Part shown: positions 6,650-21,334 of the stretch, in pieces
Layout: every line of letters starts with the position of its first letter
Numbering within the stretch: the stretch's first letter is position 1
Virus record (IMG/VR): IMGVR_UViG_3300047551_000777
Span: 1 to 34,150 of that record
Strand: one strand, 5' to 3'
DNA: 34,150 bases
From: a virus
Position numbers and translations under genes: made by a program
The notes under the pieces: generated by a model
The model's input: the letters and a program-made list of their open reading frames with translations, nothing else
Told to the model about the DNA's origin: nothing
Databases searched by the model: none

Positions 6650-8410
6650 ATGGCTGCTATCATTTCTGAAAAGTTCAGAATTTTCAACGCCAAGCAATTT
6701 CTGGAATCTCTTTCAGAAGGCAGTGGCGATACTGACACAAACCGCTCAAGGATGTATTTCTTTGTCGGTAGACCCCAAGCTTGGAGAGCATTTATTGAAA
6801 CTTATGCTAGAAGTTCAACTGCTTTTTCAGTTGGTGAAGAAGTTTATGTTGGTGCTAGTCTAGGTGCCGCTACATTTAAAGGAACTGTTTCAGAAGTAAA
6901 TCCTAATAGTTTACTTCTAACAGGTATCGGTCCTACAGTAGGTGCTACTCCTGCTGCTGGAGCAACTTTAACTGGCAATACTTCAGGTGCAACTGCTAAG
7001 GTTGGCGTCTACAGATATGCAACTGAAGAAATTCCAACTGCTCCTATCGACAACCAAGAAGAAAAATTTGATGTATATGATGACATGATTGCTCTTAAGA
7101 GAGTAACATCATCATACGCAAGACACGTAATCAGACGTTACAACTGGGATTTAACTGTTAATCCCAAGTTTGATATGTGGAGACCAGATTATTCGTCATT
7201 AAAATTAACAGCAACTGGCGAATCTTCAATGGCAGGTGCGAAATATGCTGTTATGAATAATCAATATGAAGTATTTGCTTGCCTCTATAATGGCACCAAT
7301 CCTTCAAACTTAAGTGGTCAGAATGCTACTTATCCTCCAACAACCACTCCTGTCAGTGGTGAGGGAACATATTCTAGTGGTATTTTCACAGAACCAGGCG
7401 GAACTGCTGGTTACGTTTGGAAGTATATGTATACCATTCCAACAGATGATGTAATCAAATTCCTCTCATCGGATTTCATGCCAATCGTTCTGAATGGCAC
7501 TGTTCAATCTGGTGCTGTTGATGGCGCTATTTCGGTAGCTCTTCTAAAAGATGCGGGCGGAAACTTGCCAACCAGCACAACTCTTTATGCCGCTATTCTA
7601 GGTGACGGGTCTGGCGGTAAAGTTGCAATCACAACCAATGGATCTGGAGCGATTACTGGAGTATCGGTAAATGCTGCTGGTAGTGGTTATACTTATGCTA
7701 ATGTTGTGTTAAAGAATGGTTATCTATATACAAACTCTTCATTAACAACAGCGGCAACTGTTGCTGCAAACGCATTTGGTGCTATTGAAGTAATTATTCC
7801 TCCACAAGGCGGTCATGGCGCTGATCCTGTCTTAGAACTCAATTCTAAGCGTGTTATGTTAAATATTCGTTTAACATATGCAGAAGGTTCTGGCGATTTC
7901 CCTGTAGATAACGATTTCAGAAGAATTGGTATTGTTCAAGATCCTCTTCAGTATGGTTCATCTAACTTCCTAACAGTAGATAACGCATCTGCTTTATATG
8001 CAGTCAAATTAACTGGTGTTACTGGAAACTTCGTTGCTGATGAAATTATCACACAAACAAATAGTGGTTTGGTTTCAAAAGGCACTGTAGTTTCTTGGAC
8101 TTTAGACACAGGCAGCACTACTGCAGGTGTTCTTAAGTATTATCAATCAGCAGAACAACATGCTGATAATGGTGTTGTGAGAGCATTTGTTTCAACTGGT
8201 GCAAATGCTATCACTGGTGCTACTAGTGGCAGAACTGGCACTGTAGATACTGCATATGCTGCAAATAATCTTGGCATGACATTTGCTGCTGGATTAGCAA
8301 CCCCAGAAGTAAAAGCAAACTCTGGCGAAACAATCTACGTTGAAAACAGAAGACTAATCACAAGAGCTCCTGACCAGATTGAAGATATCAAATTAGTTAT
8401 TGAATTCTGA
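6650..8410 (+). CDS. 8: Baseplate wedge protein gp8, enlarged
   Basis: This is a homologue of T4 gp8, a structural subunit of the baseplate wedge. Seen in the sequence: the N-terminus has IISEKFRIFNAKQFLES and later FFVGRPQAW, matching the T4 gp8 start (VTSKFRTEKMLNFYNS, then FGRSEPW). GYVWKYMYTIP at about residue 254 matches T4 GYVWEYLFEIP. FRRIGIVQDPL near 423 matches T4 FRQISIITNPL. The end SGETIYVENRRLITRAPDQ (from about 558) matches T4 SGEMIYMENRPPI...MDQ. At 586 residues it is far longer than T4 gp8 (334). The extra length falls in three insertions (about residues 52-115, 275-420 and 440-555), rich in Gly/Thr/Ala and carrying a GSGYT repeat near 344. Codon use looks less AT-biased than in the fibre genes, as expected for a well-expressed core gene. 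It is preceded by late promoter boxes and a good ribosome binding site. Confidence 0.93.
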   Translation: MAAIISEKFRIFNAKQFLESLSEGSGDTDTNRSRMYFFVGRPQAWRAFIETYARSSTAFSVGEEVYVGASLGAATFKGTVSEVNPNSLLLTGIGPTVGATPAAGATLTGNTSGATAKVGVYRYATEEIPTAPIDNQEEKFDVYDDMIALKRVTSSYARHVIRRYNWDLTVNPKFDMWRPDYSSLKLTATGESSMAGAKYAVMNNQYEVFACLYNGTNPSNLSGQNATYPPTTTPVSGEGTYSSGIFTEPGGTAGYVWKYMYTIPTDDVIKFLSSDFMPIVLNGTVQSGAVDGAISVALLKDAGGNLPTSTTLYAAILGDGSGGKVAITTNGSGAITGVSVNAAGSGYTYANVVLKNGYLYTNSSLTTAATVAANAFGAIEVIIPPQGGHGADPVLELNSKRVMLNIRLTYAEGSGDFPVDNDFRRIGIVQDPLQYGSSNFLTVDNASALYAVKLTGVTGNFVADEIITQTNSGLVSKGTVVSWTLDTGSTTAGVLKYYQSAEQHADNGVVRAFVSTGANAITGATSGRTGTVDTAYAANNLGMTFAAGLATPEVKANSGETIYVENRRLITRAPDQIEDIKLVIEF

Positions 8411-16628: not shown

Positions 16629-16849
16629 TGGAATATATTAAAGTTCTTGACCATGACTATTTGGTGAGAGACAATAATACTGGTGCCATTATAAATACTG
16701 ATAAAAGTGTATTTGAAGATGCTAGAAAACTGCGTAATGGCAGTGCATCTATTAAAAAACTTCAAACTGATGTTGAAGATCTAAAAAATGAGTTGTCAGA
16801 TATCAAAAATCTTCTAAGAGAATTTATCAGAAATGCCAGCAATACTTAG
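16628..16849 (+). CDS. Small coiled-coil protein, 73 residues
   Basis: Function not recognised by family name. The ATG shares one base with the upstream stop (TAATG), which suggests coupled translation. The N-terminal half has a short conserved-looking segment (DYLVRDNNTGAIINTDKS). From about residue 38 on, the pattern of hydrophobic residues (IKKLQTDVEDLKNELSDIKN) predicts a coiled coil. Small proteins with this build (a RDxxTGAxINTD-like start then a heptad helix) are, to my knowledge, common in marine T4-like phages. Its place between the DUF4815 protein and a fibre protein suggests a small structural part or assembly helper, which is inference. Its 3' end overlaps the next gene by 17 bases. 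Confidence 0.8.
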   Translation: MEYIKVLDHDYLVRDNNTGAIINTDKSVFEDARKLRNGSASIKKLQTDVEDLKNELSDIKNLLREFIRNASNT

Positions 16850-19800
16850 AAATGTAGCAAAAACCGATACTCTGGAAACACAGAGGCAGAAGATAAATTT
16901 ACTTGCTCAAGACGTATATGATTTGGGTGGGGGATCTGGCGGAGGTGGCCTTTCTGGAACTTTTTCTTTATCTAATGGAACTAGATTCGCTCCGTCTTTA
17001 AATTTTACAAATCAACAGAATACGGGGTTGTTTTTATATGGAAATTCTTTATCCGTATCATCAGTAGAATCTGAGACAGCAAGATTTAATGGCGATGATA
17101 TAAGATATTATAAAACCACAAAAATACAAAATGCTGAAATAGATGCATTAGTAATACAAACCGAGGGATTTGGATATCAACCAAAAGAGTATGAGAATAT
17201 TTCAGTTTCTGGAGGTTCTGGATCTGGAGCATTAGTTGATGTTACTGTTTCTCCTTTTGTTGGTTCTATCACAAATGCGGGATCTGGTTACATTCCAGGA
17301 ACATATACAAATGTTCCTCTTTCAGGAGGATCTGGTAGTAATGCAGAAGCAACCGTAACTGTAAGAGGTATAGTAGGAACTATAACTTCTGGAGGATCTG
17401 GATATACCAATGCAACATATGATGATGTTCCTTTATCTGGTGGAAATGGAACTGGAGCAAGAGCAACATTGGTAGTTACTGGCGGTGCAGTAACTACAGT
17501 AACTATAACAAATAATGGTAGTGGATATTTAATCAATAATGTATTATCTGTAAATAATTCTGATTTGGCAATTCCAATTTCTCAGGGGGGAGGAACTAGT
17601 GGAGGATCTGGATTTCAATTTACAATTTCACAATCTCCATATGTTGTTAGTAATGTTACACCAACCTCAAATGGAAAAGGTGGATATGTAGTAGGTAACG
17701 TTCTTTCTGCAGCAAATACTGTAATAGGAGCTAGTACTCCAGTAGGAACAATTACTAATGCTGGAACTGGATATACAAATGGAACGTATACAAATATTGA
17801 TGTATATAATGTTCCGACAACAACATATATTGTAACATCTGTTCCTAATCCAAATACACCACCACCCGTAAATGTATATTCTATTAATGGAAATATTCAA
17901 CAGTCGTTAACTTTTACTATTGGAAATACTTACAGATTTGATCTTTCAAATGTTTCTAATGATACCCATCCTTTTCTAATTTTAGCGCAAAATTATCAAC
18001 CAACTCCAGATGGTATCCAAGTTATCACAAAAGGAACTCCTGGATCAACAGGTGCTTTTGTAGACGTTATAATTGGAACTAGCGTACCCAATAATACTGT
18101 ATTAGTTTATAGTTGTGCTGCTCACCCTGGAATGGGGTCTACAATAACTTGTGTTACTGGTAGTGCTGGTAGATATGGATATTCTGCAAAAGCAAGTTTA
18201 GTGGTTTCATCTGGATCTGTTACTAGTTTTACTATAACTAAAGTTGGTTTTCAATATAAAGCAACAGATACTGTTTCAATTTTATCTTTAGATGTTGGTG
18301 GAACTGGATCTGGATTTGTATATACTATTAATACAGCATCTACTGGTTCTGGTTCAGGATTTCAATATACACTATCTGAAGTTGGTTCGATTACTTTAGC
18401 AGATGTTAGATCTAGCGGAGATGGATATCAACTAGAAGATGTATTAACTCCTTCAATTCCATTCACTTATAAAATAAAAAGTTATGGATATTTTAGCAGT
18501 TTTAAATTTTGGATAGATAAAAATGATGGGTTGGGATATGTTCAAACCCCAACATTAAATTTATATCGAGGTTATACATATATTTTTGATTACAGTGATC
18601 AATCTAATTTACCACATGCTTTTAATGTCAGTGTAACGCAAGATGGAATTCATAATGGAGGAACTATTTTTACAGATGGAGTTACAGTCGATCCATTAAA
18701 TAAAACTGTTACTTTGGTTGTATCTAATTCAACTCCATCAACTCTGTATTATTATTGTGCTGTTCAAGCATCTAGTCATTCTGGAGAAGGTGGAACAATT
18801 AATGTTTTGACTGGAACTCCAGCACAATTAACCACCGCAGAAATATTAATTGACGAAATAACTAATACTAATGCAGTAACATTAAATTTAGATGGTTCTA
18901 TTGTTTCTTCTACATTAACAGCAGATTCCGCTTTTCTTCAATCAGCAATTTTATCTTCAAATCTTTCTGTAGGAAATTTATCTCTTTCTGGAACCACTAT
19001 CAATACCGCAAGTGGAAATTTAAATCTTTCTTCTGCTGCTAATTTTTATATCAATGGAGGAACAGGAAAAAATTTATATTTCAAAAATGGTATAACAGAT
19101 CTTATAACTGTTGATTTGAGCACTGGAGATATAGAAACTGAAGGAAATATTTCTATATTAAATAATAGTTATTTGACTATTAATGAAAAATTAAAAATAG
19201 ATAATACTTTAATAGAAGAAATAGTTGATGTTCCTCTAACTGGCAATGGTGTAGGCATAACATTAAAACCAGATGCAAATAAATCTGTATTTGTAGATGC
19301 AACCTCTTCCTTTAAAATTCCAGTAGGATCTACAGCAGATAGACCACTTGATTCAACACAAGGTTCGGTCAGGTATAATACAACCACTAATCAATACGAA
19401 GGTTATAATGGAACTAGTTGGGCTAGTTTGGGTGGTGTTAGAGATATTGATGGTAACACTTATATTTTAGCAGAATCTTCTGCTGGTGCTAACGAAAATA
19501 TTCTATATTTCTATAACAATTCAAAAAATACTTTACAAATTTCAGAAACTGACGTATCATTTTACAACGCAAGAAATATTACTGCATATGATATTGATGG
19601 ATTACTTCCATGGCAATCCAACACAGCATATGCACTTAATGTCGAAATTTATACTGCAACTAATGTTTATAGAGTCATTTCTTCTGGAGGAACAACAGGA
19701 TTATCCGCACCTACACATACTTCTGGATCCGTAACTAATGGAACTGCTAACCTCTTATGGTTAAGAAGTGTTTATTCTGATATAACATTTTCTTCTTTCA

Positions 19801-20819
19801 ATACTAAATTAAATATTAATACTCCAACCTATTATAACAATGGTATTATTATATCCACTAATAGTATCTCAACTGTATCTGAAGATTTAACTATATCACC
19901 ATATGCTGGTAAAAAAGTAAATATAAGTGCAACTACTTCCCTGGTTTTACCATCTGGAAATTCATCACAAAGAGGTGCTCCTTCAATTGGATCTGTTAGA
20001 TATAACACAGATTTTCTTTCCTTTGAAGGTTATAACGGAACAAATTGGACTAGTTTGGGTGGCGTAAAAGATGTAGATGGAAATACATACATCATTCCAG
20101 AATCTGCTCCTGGCGCTAATGAAAATATTTTATATTTCTATAACAATGGCAACAATACCCTAAGAGTAACTGAAACAGAATTGTTATTCAAGACTATAGA
20201 TAATATTTCTTCGGATAGCAATAATTTAGATATTAATACTCAGACACTAGGATTGAACAATCTTGCATTTACTATTGACACTAGTTCTTCAACTACTGTA
20301 AAATTATTATCGACATATGCAAATGTTGATTTTGCAATATCTTCTGGTTTAACTTCAGATACTCTTTTAAGATTGAATTCTTCTGGTGATCTTTTAATTA
20401 ATAAATCATACTCAACAGGTTCAACTAATTTTATAAAAATTTTAGATAATGAATTAAAAACTTTTGAATTGGATGATATAAAAACAGAAACAACAGAATC
20501 AATACTTGTAAAAGGAACCACCGATTTTACTTTATTTACTCTTTTTGATCCCTCCATTCACAATGGAGCAAAAGTTATTTTAGTTGCTAATAATCAAACA
20601 ACAAACGATAAAGAAATTATAGAATTTAATATTACATCAAAAGGATCTGATATATATCACACAGAGTATGGAAATATTACTACTGGAAATGATCAAATGT
20701 CGGTATTATTTGATTTTGATCCTTCAAACAATGTTCGTTTAACCGCTACTTTGGATACATTATTATCTTCTGGGAATAATGTTCATATTACTTGCATCAA
20801 AACCATCTTCAAAAAATAA
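16833..20819 (+). CDS. Fibre protein with two cupredoxin-like domains, 1328 residues
   Basis: Virion fibre-type protein. Residues 1-30 hold TLETQRQKINLLAQDVYDL, a short helix followed by a Gly-rich linker, as at the start of baseplate-attached fibres. Three 38-41-residue Gly-Ser-Gly-Tyr repeats follow (about residues 114-230). A cupredoxin-like domain (about 345-443) has H379, C428, H431 and M434, a full type-1 copper set. A second one (about 546-664) has H595, C642 and H649 but no matching Met. Residues 819-916 and 1029-1126 are a duplicated module (GSVRYNT, EGYNGT, DGNTYI, ANENILYFYNN). A carbohydrate-binding-like module lies at about 925-983. The last 100 residues resemble the beta-sandwich that closes many marine phage fibres and, loosely, the C-terminal domain of T4 gp9. 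Metal binding is inferred from residues only. It overlaps the preceding gene by 17 bases; an equivalent of T4 gp9, gp10 or another baseplate-attached fibre is possible. Confidence 0.85.
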   Translation: MPAILRNVAKTDTLETQRQKINLLAQDVYDLGGGSGGGGLSGTFSLSNGTRFAPSLNFTNQQNTGLFLYGNSLSVSSVESETARFNGDDIRYYKTTKIQNAEIDALVIQTEGFGYQPKEYENISVSGGSGSGALVDVTVSPFVGSITNAGSGYIPGTYTNVPLSGGSGSNAEATVTVRGIVGTITSGGSGYTNATYDDVPLSGGNGTGARATLVVTGGAVTTVTITNNGSGYLINNVLSVNNSDLAIPISQGGGTSGGSGFQFTISQSPYVVSNVTPTSNGKGGYVVGNVLSAANTVIGASTPVGTITNAGTGYTNGTYTNIDVYNVPTTTYIVTSVPNPNTPPPVNVYSINGNIQQSLTFTIGNTYRFDLSNVSNDTHPFLILAQNYQPTPDGIQVITKGTPGSTGAFVDVIIGTSVPNNTVLVYSCAAHPGMGSTITCVTGSAGRYGYSAKASLVVSSGSVTSFTITKVGFQYKATDTVSILSLDVGGTGSGFVYTINTASTGSGSGFQYTLSEVGSITLADVRSSGDGYQLEDVLTPSIPFTYKIKSYGYFSSFKFWIDKNDGLGYVQTPTLNLYRGYTYIFDYSDQSNLPHAFNVSVTQDGIHNGGTIFTDGVTVDPLNKTVTLVVSNSTPSTLYYYCAVQASSHSGEGGTINVLTGTPAQLTTAEILIDEITNTNAVTLNLDGSIVSSTLTADSAFLQSAILSSNLSVGNLSLSGTTINTASGNLNLSSAANFYINGGTGKNLYFKNGITDLITVDLSTGDIETEGNISILNNSYLTINEKLKIDNTLIEEIVDVPLTGNGVGITLKPDANKSVFVDATSSFKIPVGSTADRPLDSTQGSVRYNTTTNQYEGYNGTSWASLGGVRDIDGNTYILAESSAGANENILYFYNNSKNTLQISETDVSFYNARNITAYDIDGLLPWQSNTAYALNVEIYTATNVYRVISSGGTTGLSAPTHTSGSVTNGTANLLWLRSVYSDITFSSFNTKLNINTPTYYNNGIIISTNSISTVSEDLTISPYAGKKVNISATTSLVLPSGNSSQRGAPSIGSVRYNTDFLSFEGYNGTNWTSLGGVKDVDGNTYIIPESAPGANENILYFYNNGNNTLRVTETELLFKTIDNISSDSNNLDINTQTLGLNNLAFTIDTSSSTTVKLLSTYANVDFAISSGLTSDTLLRLNSSGDLLINKSYSTGSTNFIKILDNELKTFELDDIKTETTESILVKGTTDFTLFTLFDPSIHNGAKVILVANNQTTNDKEIIEFNITSKGSDIYHTEYGNITTGNDQMSVLFDFDPSNNVRLTATLDTLLSSGNNVHITCIKTIFKK
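17172..17522 (+). repeat. Three tandem 38-41-codon Gly-Ser-Gly-Tyr repeats
   Basis: In-frame units start at 17172, 17286 and 17400, and a partial fourth starts at 17523. Spacings are 114, 114 and 123 bases. Each unit begins with GY, then a (T/E)Y-x-N/D-V/I segment, then (P/V)LSGG or VSGG, then GSG/GTG and a beta strand ending in GSG. The units are recognisably related but diverged at DNA level. They probably form stacked beta hairpins or a beta-helix-like shaft. Confidence 0.8.
19287..20211 (+). repeat. Duplicated 98-codon module inside the 1328-residue fibre
   Basis: Copies at 19287-19581 and 19917-20211 are collinear and share GSVRYNT, EGYNGT, SLGGV, DIDGNTYI/DVDGNTYI and ENILYFYNN. The bases have diverged, with only short identical runs, so the duplication is old. 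A carbohydrate-binding-like module (about 19605-19780) lies between the copies. Confidence 0.75.
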
Positions 20820-20824
20820 AAGTC

Positions 20825-21334
20825 ATGCCAATATCTAAGAAATCTTTTAGTTCTTCTGGTGGTTTTGCTGTAAATGAAACCACAATAATTGACGATACTA
20901 GAAATGTATCTGCCGTAAATACTTTAGAAATTAAAAATAATAATTTTAGTGATGCTACTAGAAAAGAATACATTTTAAAAGGAACTAATACTTCTATTCT
21001 ATCGTTAAATAATGCTACTTCGTATATAAATTTATCATCAAATACAATAAATTTTATAACAGCAAAAATTATAGGAGTCAATAATTCAGGTAATACACAT
21101 TATTCTTTAAAAATAGAATCTGTTGCTTCCTGTGATTCTTCAGGAGACGTTTTGGTGCTTTCTGAATTGCGAACAATTATTGAAGATAGCGTTCCTCTGG
21201 AACAAACGTGGGCAGTATCATTTTATGATTCTGCTACGATAAATTTATTCAGTTATTCTGTTTCTAGATCTGGAACAACTGATACTGTAAAATGGATAGC
21301 TCACGTTGATGTAGTGAGTGTTTTGTGGTCTTGA
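20825..21334 (+). CDS. Small fibre-tip-like protein, 169 residues
   Basis: I start it at the ATG at 20825, six bases after the previous stop. An in-frame TTG at 20792 would overlap the upstream gene and has no support. The N-terminus is MPISKKSFSSSGGFAVNET. From about residue 70 to the end the protein matches the pattern of a beta-sandwich common at fibre ends in marine phages: a core strand (NFITAKIIGV), a strand with YSLKIESVA, then a LRTIIED-type loop, and a final TDTVKWIAHVDV strand. The family reading rests on my recognition of that pattern. It lies between two fibre genes and is probably a small virion protein, for example a cap, adaptor or minor adhesin. No signal peptide, membrane segment or catalytic motif is visible. 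Confidence 0.72.
   Translation: MPISKKSFSSSGGFAVNETTIIDDTRNVSAVNTLEIKNNNFSDATRKEYILKGTNTSILSLNNATSYINLSSNTINFITAKIIGVNNSGNTHYSLKIESVASCDSSGDVLVLSELRTIIEDSVPLEQTWAVSFYDSATINLFSYSVSRSGTTDTVKWIAHVDVVSVLWS

Follow-up and report, generated by a model that had tools for sequence, protein, structure and literature searches.

A cupredoxin-like module with a putative type-1 copper site, and its diverged second copy, in a virion structural protein of a marine phage

The window, the whole stretch of DNA analysed here, is a linear IMG/VR virus record of 34,150 bases in which the baseplate and fibre genes of a T4-like marine phage are clustered. Within this cluster, and flanked on both sides by very large structural genes, lies a gene for a protein of 1328 residues that matches PHROG 6005 (virion structural protein) with an E value of 6.9e-274 and phrog_32294 (baseplate wedge subunit) with an E value of 1.3e-92 in profile searches. 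The profile match and a conserved gene order, running from a gp7/VrlC-like gene through the 1328-residue gene and a small structural protein to a very large fibre gene, place it in PHROG 6005. The same neighbours surround its counterpart in cyanophages such as S-MbCM7, S-CAM4 and S-WAM2, and the closest isolates share only ~35-40% identity with the protein itself. The open reading frame of a 180-residue structural protein (phrog_5449; window 20792-21334) overlaps the end of the gene, and the TTG start given for it in the ORF list is probably not the true one. The features discussed below are as follows.

6650-8410: gp8-like baseplate wedge gene (phrog_438, E 5e-166; Pfam Phage-Gp8)
16833..20819, + strand: virion structural protein of 1328 residues, fibre/baseplate-associated, with both cupredoxin-like domains inside it (ORF listing, PHROG profiles)
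17829..18173, + strand: domain 1, residues 333-447, predicted cupredoxin-like beta sandwich with His-Cys-His-Met (AlphaFold2, VIA)
17967..17969, + strand: H379, candidate for the first His ligand, in a loop that leads into model strand 49-53
18114..18116, + strand: C428, candidate Cys ligand, closing model strand 91-96
18123..18125, + strand: H431, candidate for the second His ligand, in the loop that joins the last two strands
18132..18134, + strand: M434, candidate axial Met, in the same loop as H431
18474..18827, + strand: domain 2, residues 548-665, predicted cupredoxin-like with His-Cys-x6-His-x2-Glu (family profile, AlphaFold2, VIA)
18615..18617, + strand: H595, first His of domain 2
18756..18758, + strand: C642, Cys of domain 2
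18777..18779, + strand: H649, second His of domain 2
18786..18788, + strand: E652, axial position of domain 2

The stretch at 17862-18164, residues 344-444 of the protein, had been picked out in an original prediction as a cupredoxin-like domain, and the translation puts H379 (NDTHPF), C428, H431 and M434 (YSCAAHPGM) exactly where that prediction had them, with the strand GAFVDVIIGT, which it also named, beginning at G407. The Cys-x2-His-x2-Met spacing is identical to that of amicyanin, as claimed. Such a motif is improbable by chance because the 1328-residue protein is very poor in Cys, His and Met (4, 9 and 3 residues, the last including Met1): composition alone gives an expectation of ~6e-5 for C-x2-H-x2-M in the whole protein, and of ~1e-5 when a His ~35-65 residues upstream is added. 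Several repeats of the type GSGY-x-x-G-x-Y-x-N-V-P-x-SGG-x-G lie N-terminal of domain 1 (window 17100-17830, residues ~90-330), and stretches of this kind have matches among the large virion proteins of further marine phages (phrog_5342, phrog_701).

AlphaFold2 models domain 1 as an all-beta structure of nine strands (pLDDT 95.3, pTM 0.86); within the limits of prediction this excludes a fold other than a sandwich, the outcome that would have spoken against the original prediction. H379, C428, H431 and M434 become residues 47, 96, 99 and 102 of the model, where the first His stands before a strand, the Cys closes a strand and the second His and Met share the next loop, which is the classical arrangement. 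Domain 1 thus has the ligand order and, in the model, the structural elements of type-1 (blue) copper proteins. The fold search of domain 1 taken alone is ambiguous. VIA returns the N-terminal domain of copper nitrite reductase (CuNiR; Z 7.2) and rusticyanin (Z 7.1) tied with dystroglycan (Z 7.1), and aligns amicyanin at Z 5.4, with 2.3 A over 75 residues; in Foldseek against the PDB dystroglycan and immunoglobulin (Ig) folds lead, with none at E <0.001. In BFVD the same model matches short proteins, named “Beta-sandwich proteins”, from the giant viruses Pithovirus LCPAC and Marseillevirus LCMAC, at TM ~0.6-0.7 of the query. The mixture of cupredoxin with Ig and dystroglycan folds is consistent with a reading, in our judgement unlikely, in which packing and hydrogen bonds alone account for the retention of the cupredoxin fold and its four residues, and in which the domain holds no metal and acts as an Ig-like spacer. 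Ig domains and other Greek-key sandwiches are indeed common spacers in phage fibres.

The same protein contains a second, diverged copy of the module that the earlier note had overlooked. The family profile matches residues 572 to 657 with an E value of 9e-29, and AlphaFold2 again predicts an all-beta domain (pLDDT 87.0, pTM 0.81). Here the best eleven VIA rows are all cupredoxins, CuNiR N-domain and rusticyanin, at Z 8.8-6.7, with the first unrelated fold, dystroglycan, at Z 6.4; in Foldseek against the PDB CuNiR ranks first and AcoP and rusticyanin are among the leaders, again with none at E <0.001. Domains 1 and 2 share ~25-28% identity with each other and 55-60% with their own counterparts in other viral contigs, which suggests two subfamilies running in parallel and not a recent duplication. 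At the axial position of domain 2 the relative L108/L007 has Met and the others have Glu. Some domain-2 relatives are split by an insertion of the STQITVSSATGILAGM type (L008, L010, L011, L114, L126 and others); a His and Cys-x(n)-His-x2-Met/Glu, with n of 2, 5 or 6, are kept in 22 of these 36, and the other 14, two of them truncated by contig or ORF ends, have no detectable Cys-His-Met/Glu motif. The ligands are therefore dispensable for the fold.

Sequence comparison ties the family to copper proteins at long range. A profile of 14 members finds as its best PDB match a copper nitrite reductase in which all four ligands align (E 0.02); next come pseudoazurin, plastocyanins and multicopper oxidases, with Ig chains intermixed, and blue copper proteins and multicopper oxidases make up most of the PDB matches at E<1. 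In hhalign against five plastocyanin-type proteins, picked by PF00127 from marine genomes, the probability is 47% for domain 1 and 73% for domain 2, with the Cys and the His in register, compared with <=2% in 100 column-shuffled profiles, a control run on domain 1 only; azurin and CuNiR-like cupredoxins gave no profile match. None of the 14 members rises above the cut-off of a Pfam cupredoxin model, PF00127 (Copper-bind) included, and none matches a cupredoxin model of NCBIfam. One member matches PF00394 (E 0.031) and one PF07732 (E 0.042), and domain 1 itself scores 14.8 with PF00394, where the cut-off is 21. An annotated Ig-like spacer (Big_2 and similar) was rejected, as no Ig-like Pfam model matches the 1328-residue protein or the 14 members. 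As no Pfam or NCBIfam model recognises it, the family forms a remote, unnamed branch. On these profiles and models, membership of the cupredoxin superfamily appears solid for the family and modest for domain 1 alone.

Conservation of the ligands across diverged relatives bears on the choice between a metal site and mere packing. An iterated profile collected 316 copies from 209 fetched loci plus the window, a few of the loci overlapping, and after removal of copies >80% identical 93 non-redundant copies span the site. His-Cys-His-Met is present in 86 of them and His-Cys-His-Glu in four, one copy reads Tyr-Cys-Asp-Met and two have all four residues replaced. Loss is thus concentrated, two copies being without all four ligands and a single loss occurring in four only, each of them Met to Glu. 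When losses were permuted, with phylogeny ignored, 193 of 10,000 shuffles reached the three multi-loss copies observed, which is suggestive. The full set persists in 28 of the 32 viral loci below 60% identity and in 9 of 11 copies below 50%; column by column, the 32 viral representatives keep the first His, the Cys and the second His at 94% each and the Met at 88%, with the Cys at 97% in a looser set. This retention is not an artefact of the search, because the patterns used for the two viral scans (EYTTGV, APTLYYY, GNTYRFD and NPGTPPP types) hold no ligand residue; the genome-scan pattern did include the Cys, and genome loci were left out of the viral-only counts. Family membership, a predicted beta sandwich and a complete His-Cys-His-Met set, conserved although the remaining residues of the loop differ between copies, are computational observations.

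A fold retained only for packing would find some support in the split copies, part of which have lost the Cys and His and kept the halves of the fold. However, most copies keep all ligands together, as conserved as the Tyr, Phe and Gly of the core, and the Cys-His loop shifts in length (x2, x5, x6) while the C, the H and the x2-M/E persist, as expected of ligands. Since ligand-free copies keep the fold and most copies nevertheless keep the ligands, a function of the site is favoured over simple packing.

If the site does hold something, its contents have to be considered. Cys and His sets bind zinc in other proteins, and in some relatives, L194 for one, the N-terminus is rich in CxxC, so that a different metal (zinc or iron, for example) or a disulphide might take the place of copper. 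We regard this as very unlikely: its relatives by fold are copper proteins, and type-1 sites show this His-Cys-x2-His-x2-Met order together with the preceding strand. A conserved disulphide was rejected, given the single conserved Cys of each domain, and a C428-C440 bridge would not be common to the family because C440 is missing from the aligned relatives.

The domain is widespread. Searches of 50,697 phage records with either domain gave 60, 268 and 144 matching records, the domain-2 count including matches to gp9-type fibre connectors, and these are marine phages only, plus one record of unstated host; the carriers are phages of Synechococcus, Prochlorococcus, Pelagibacter and Methylophilales together with marine single-cell viruses. 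Scans of viral contigs, whose patterns were drawn from narrower alignments because the 14-member alignment is too diverse for degenerate patterns, gave at least 597 and at least 474 confirmed matching stretches. The domain is thus common in marine phages, contrary to the earlier view of it as unusual. That it is little described does hold: family libraries have no model, leaving the domain unnamed or calling it “tail fiber” or “virion structural protein”, and in the open-access papers searched we found no description of a cupredoxin or blue copper site in a phage tail fibre, baseplate or virion. A plasmid scan gave no match to the domain, and a genome scan gave 22 loci in marine metagenome-assembled genomes (MAGs) and single-cell genomes, where the carriers examined resemble phage proteins. 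Copies occur in SAR11 single-cell genomes or MAGs (L190, L191, L192, L193, L197, L199 and L200); of the carriers examined, those in L190 and L197 are tail fibres of the T7 type in which the domain lies close to the C-terminus, and the SAR11 loci are for this reason likely to be infected-cell or prophage sequence.

The domain is found in PHROG 6005 proteins, at the extreme C-terminus of a gp9-type connector, in baseplate proteins (phrog_32294), in T7-type fibres with a Pfam Phage_T7_tail N-terminus, in a protein with a Laminin_G_3 domain and in proteins of 235-323 residues, part of them related to phrog_28581. So many unlike fibre, connector and baseplate architectures suggest a mobile module. 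In the small proteins it is C-terminal or nearly so (L188 4536-5330, L194 4503-5285, L205 4596-5300, L209 260-1078 and L060 2060-3028), and part of them begin with a zinc-ribbon-like CxxC...CxxC stretch, whose Cys residues are lost in L060. Among 80 non-redundant ORFs with a visible end, 22 stop <=60 residues past the domain and 44 run >=150 residues further, and the domain is therefore not simply a tip domain.

These positions bear on a further alternative, in which the bound metal would serve infection directly, through contact with a receptor such as a host copper or metal-uptake protein, or through a redox-triggered change of the surface. The location near the C-terminus of T7-type fibres from SAR11-associated loci, with 54 residues left after it in L197, would suit such a role, and marine fibres with HxH iron sites have been proposed to work in this way, the iron Trojan Horse idea (PMC11705849). 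Against it, the domain is not consistently terminal, as the end distances indicate, and the hosts are as diverse as cyanobacteria, SAR11 and Methylophilales, with no obvious copper receptor in common. A redox or receptor role of the site may exist but seems to us quite unlikely.

We prefer to see in this locus a cupredoxin-fold module and its diverged copy, built into a baseplate or fibre protein, with a type-1-like site in which copper is the likely ion and with a structural or adhesive role; to this reading as a whole we assign a probability of about 0.68. The original claim of a cupredoxin-like domain with a complete type-1 set is supported by fold prediction, by profile-profile comparison and by ligand conservation across diverged relatives, and judged from sequence and model the domain probably binds copper. 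The four ligands would form a type-1-like site for a soft metal ion, most likely copper, perhaps loaded after lysis from seawater or lysate. The bound ion would pin the Cys-His-Met loop, with which the sandwich ends, thereby stabilising the exposed end of the domain. The domain may then act as a fibre spacer or adhesion module, which could make fibres in seawater more stable or give them a shaped contact surface. Domain 2 would provide a variant site with an axial Glu.

Hundreds of ocean phages share the domain, and their virions may therefore bind copper. A broader proposition, which we put forward tentatively and at less than even odds, is that marine phages share an unnamed family of copper-binding cupredoxins in fibres and baseplates, and that their virions carry copper needed for stability or attachment; if this is true, ocean phage particles would form a pool of copper ligands. 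Were copper bound, common ocean phages, cyanophages and SAR11 phages among them, would have metalloprotein fibres and baseplates, and this would matter for virion stability, host adsorption and trace-metal chemistry, as has been debated for iron. The finding also offers a testable function for a domain that family libraries leave unnamed. Metal in phage fibres is still an open topic, as the proposed iron HxH motifs illustrate (PMC11705849).

Type-1 copper sites are known from electron carriers and oxidases and, in the open-access papers searched, not from virus attachment proteins. Like plastocyanin, amicyanin and pseudoazurin (PF00127), it has a predicted sandwich with a His before a strand, a Cys at a strand end and a His and Met in the next loop; unlike these small blue copper proteins, which serve photosynthesis and respiration and with which its identity is ~10-25%, it is embedded in a virion protein of 1328 residues and has no known redox partner. 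A host plastocyanin carried as an auxiliary gene was rejected, since the domain lies inside this large protein. The closest structural relatives are rusticyanin and AcoP of Acidithiobacillus and the N-terminal cupredoxin domain of Hyphomicrobium CuNiR, which lead the matches of domain 2 (Z 8.8, 7.9) and rank high among those of domain 1 (Z 7.2, 7.1). If the register at the ends of the aligned ranges is extended with no gap after the site, M434 would coincide with rusticyanin Met148 and AcoP Met171; read likewise without a gap, C428, H431 and M434 would correspond to Cys92, His95 and Met98 of amicyanin, and C642 and E652 to Cys138 and Met148 of rusticyanin. Part of the ligand numbers of the three known proteins are those given in entry titles. 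The Cys-to-axial spacing of 10 in domain 2 equals that of rusticyanin Cys138-Met148, where the axial residue is Met148 in place of Glu. Rusticyanin, AcoP and CuNiR are electron carriers or enzyme domains, in contrast to a module of the phage virion.

Two cupredoxin-like domains in one chain also recall the two-domain laccase or multicopper oxidase 2zwn, to which domain 2 has a weak sequence match (E 0.096). A multicopper oxidase was rejected: HxH is absent throughout the 1328 residues, unlike in 2zwn, so that a trinuclear copper centre is not to be expected. Within phages, T4 gp37 offers a precedent, with iron-binding HxH motifs in a tail fibre. Motifs of this kind have been proposed for the tail fibre of the marine Alteromonas phage R22Y (PMC11705849). 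The phage domain shares with such fibres a putative metal site in a phage fibre and marine examples; in contrast to the HxH iron sites, which lie on the axis of the trimeric fibre, it would use other residues and another metal, in a separate globular domain.
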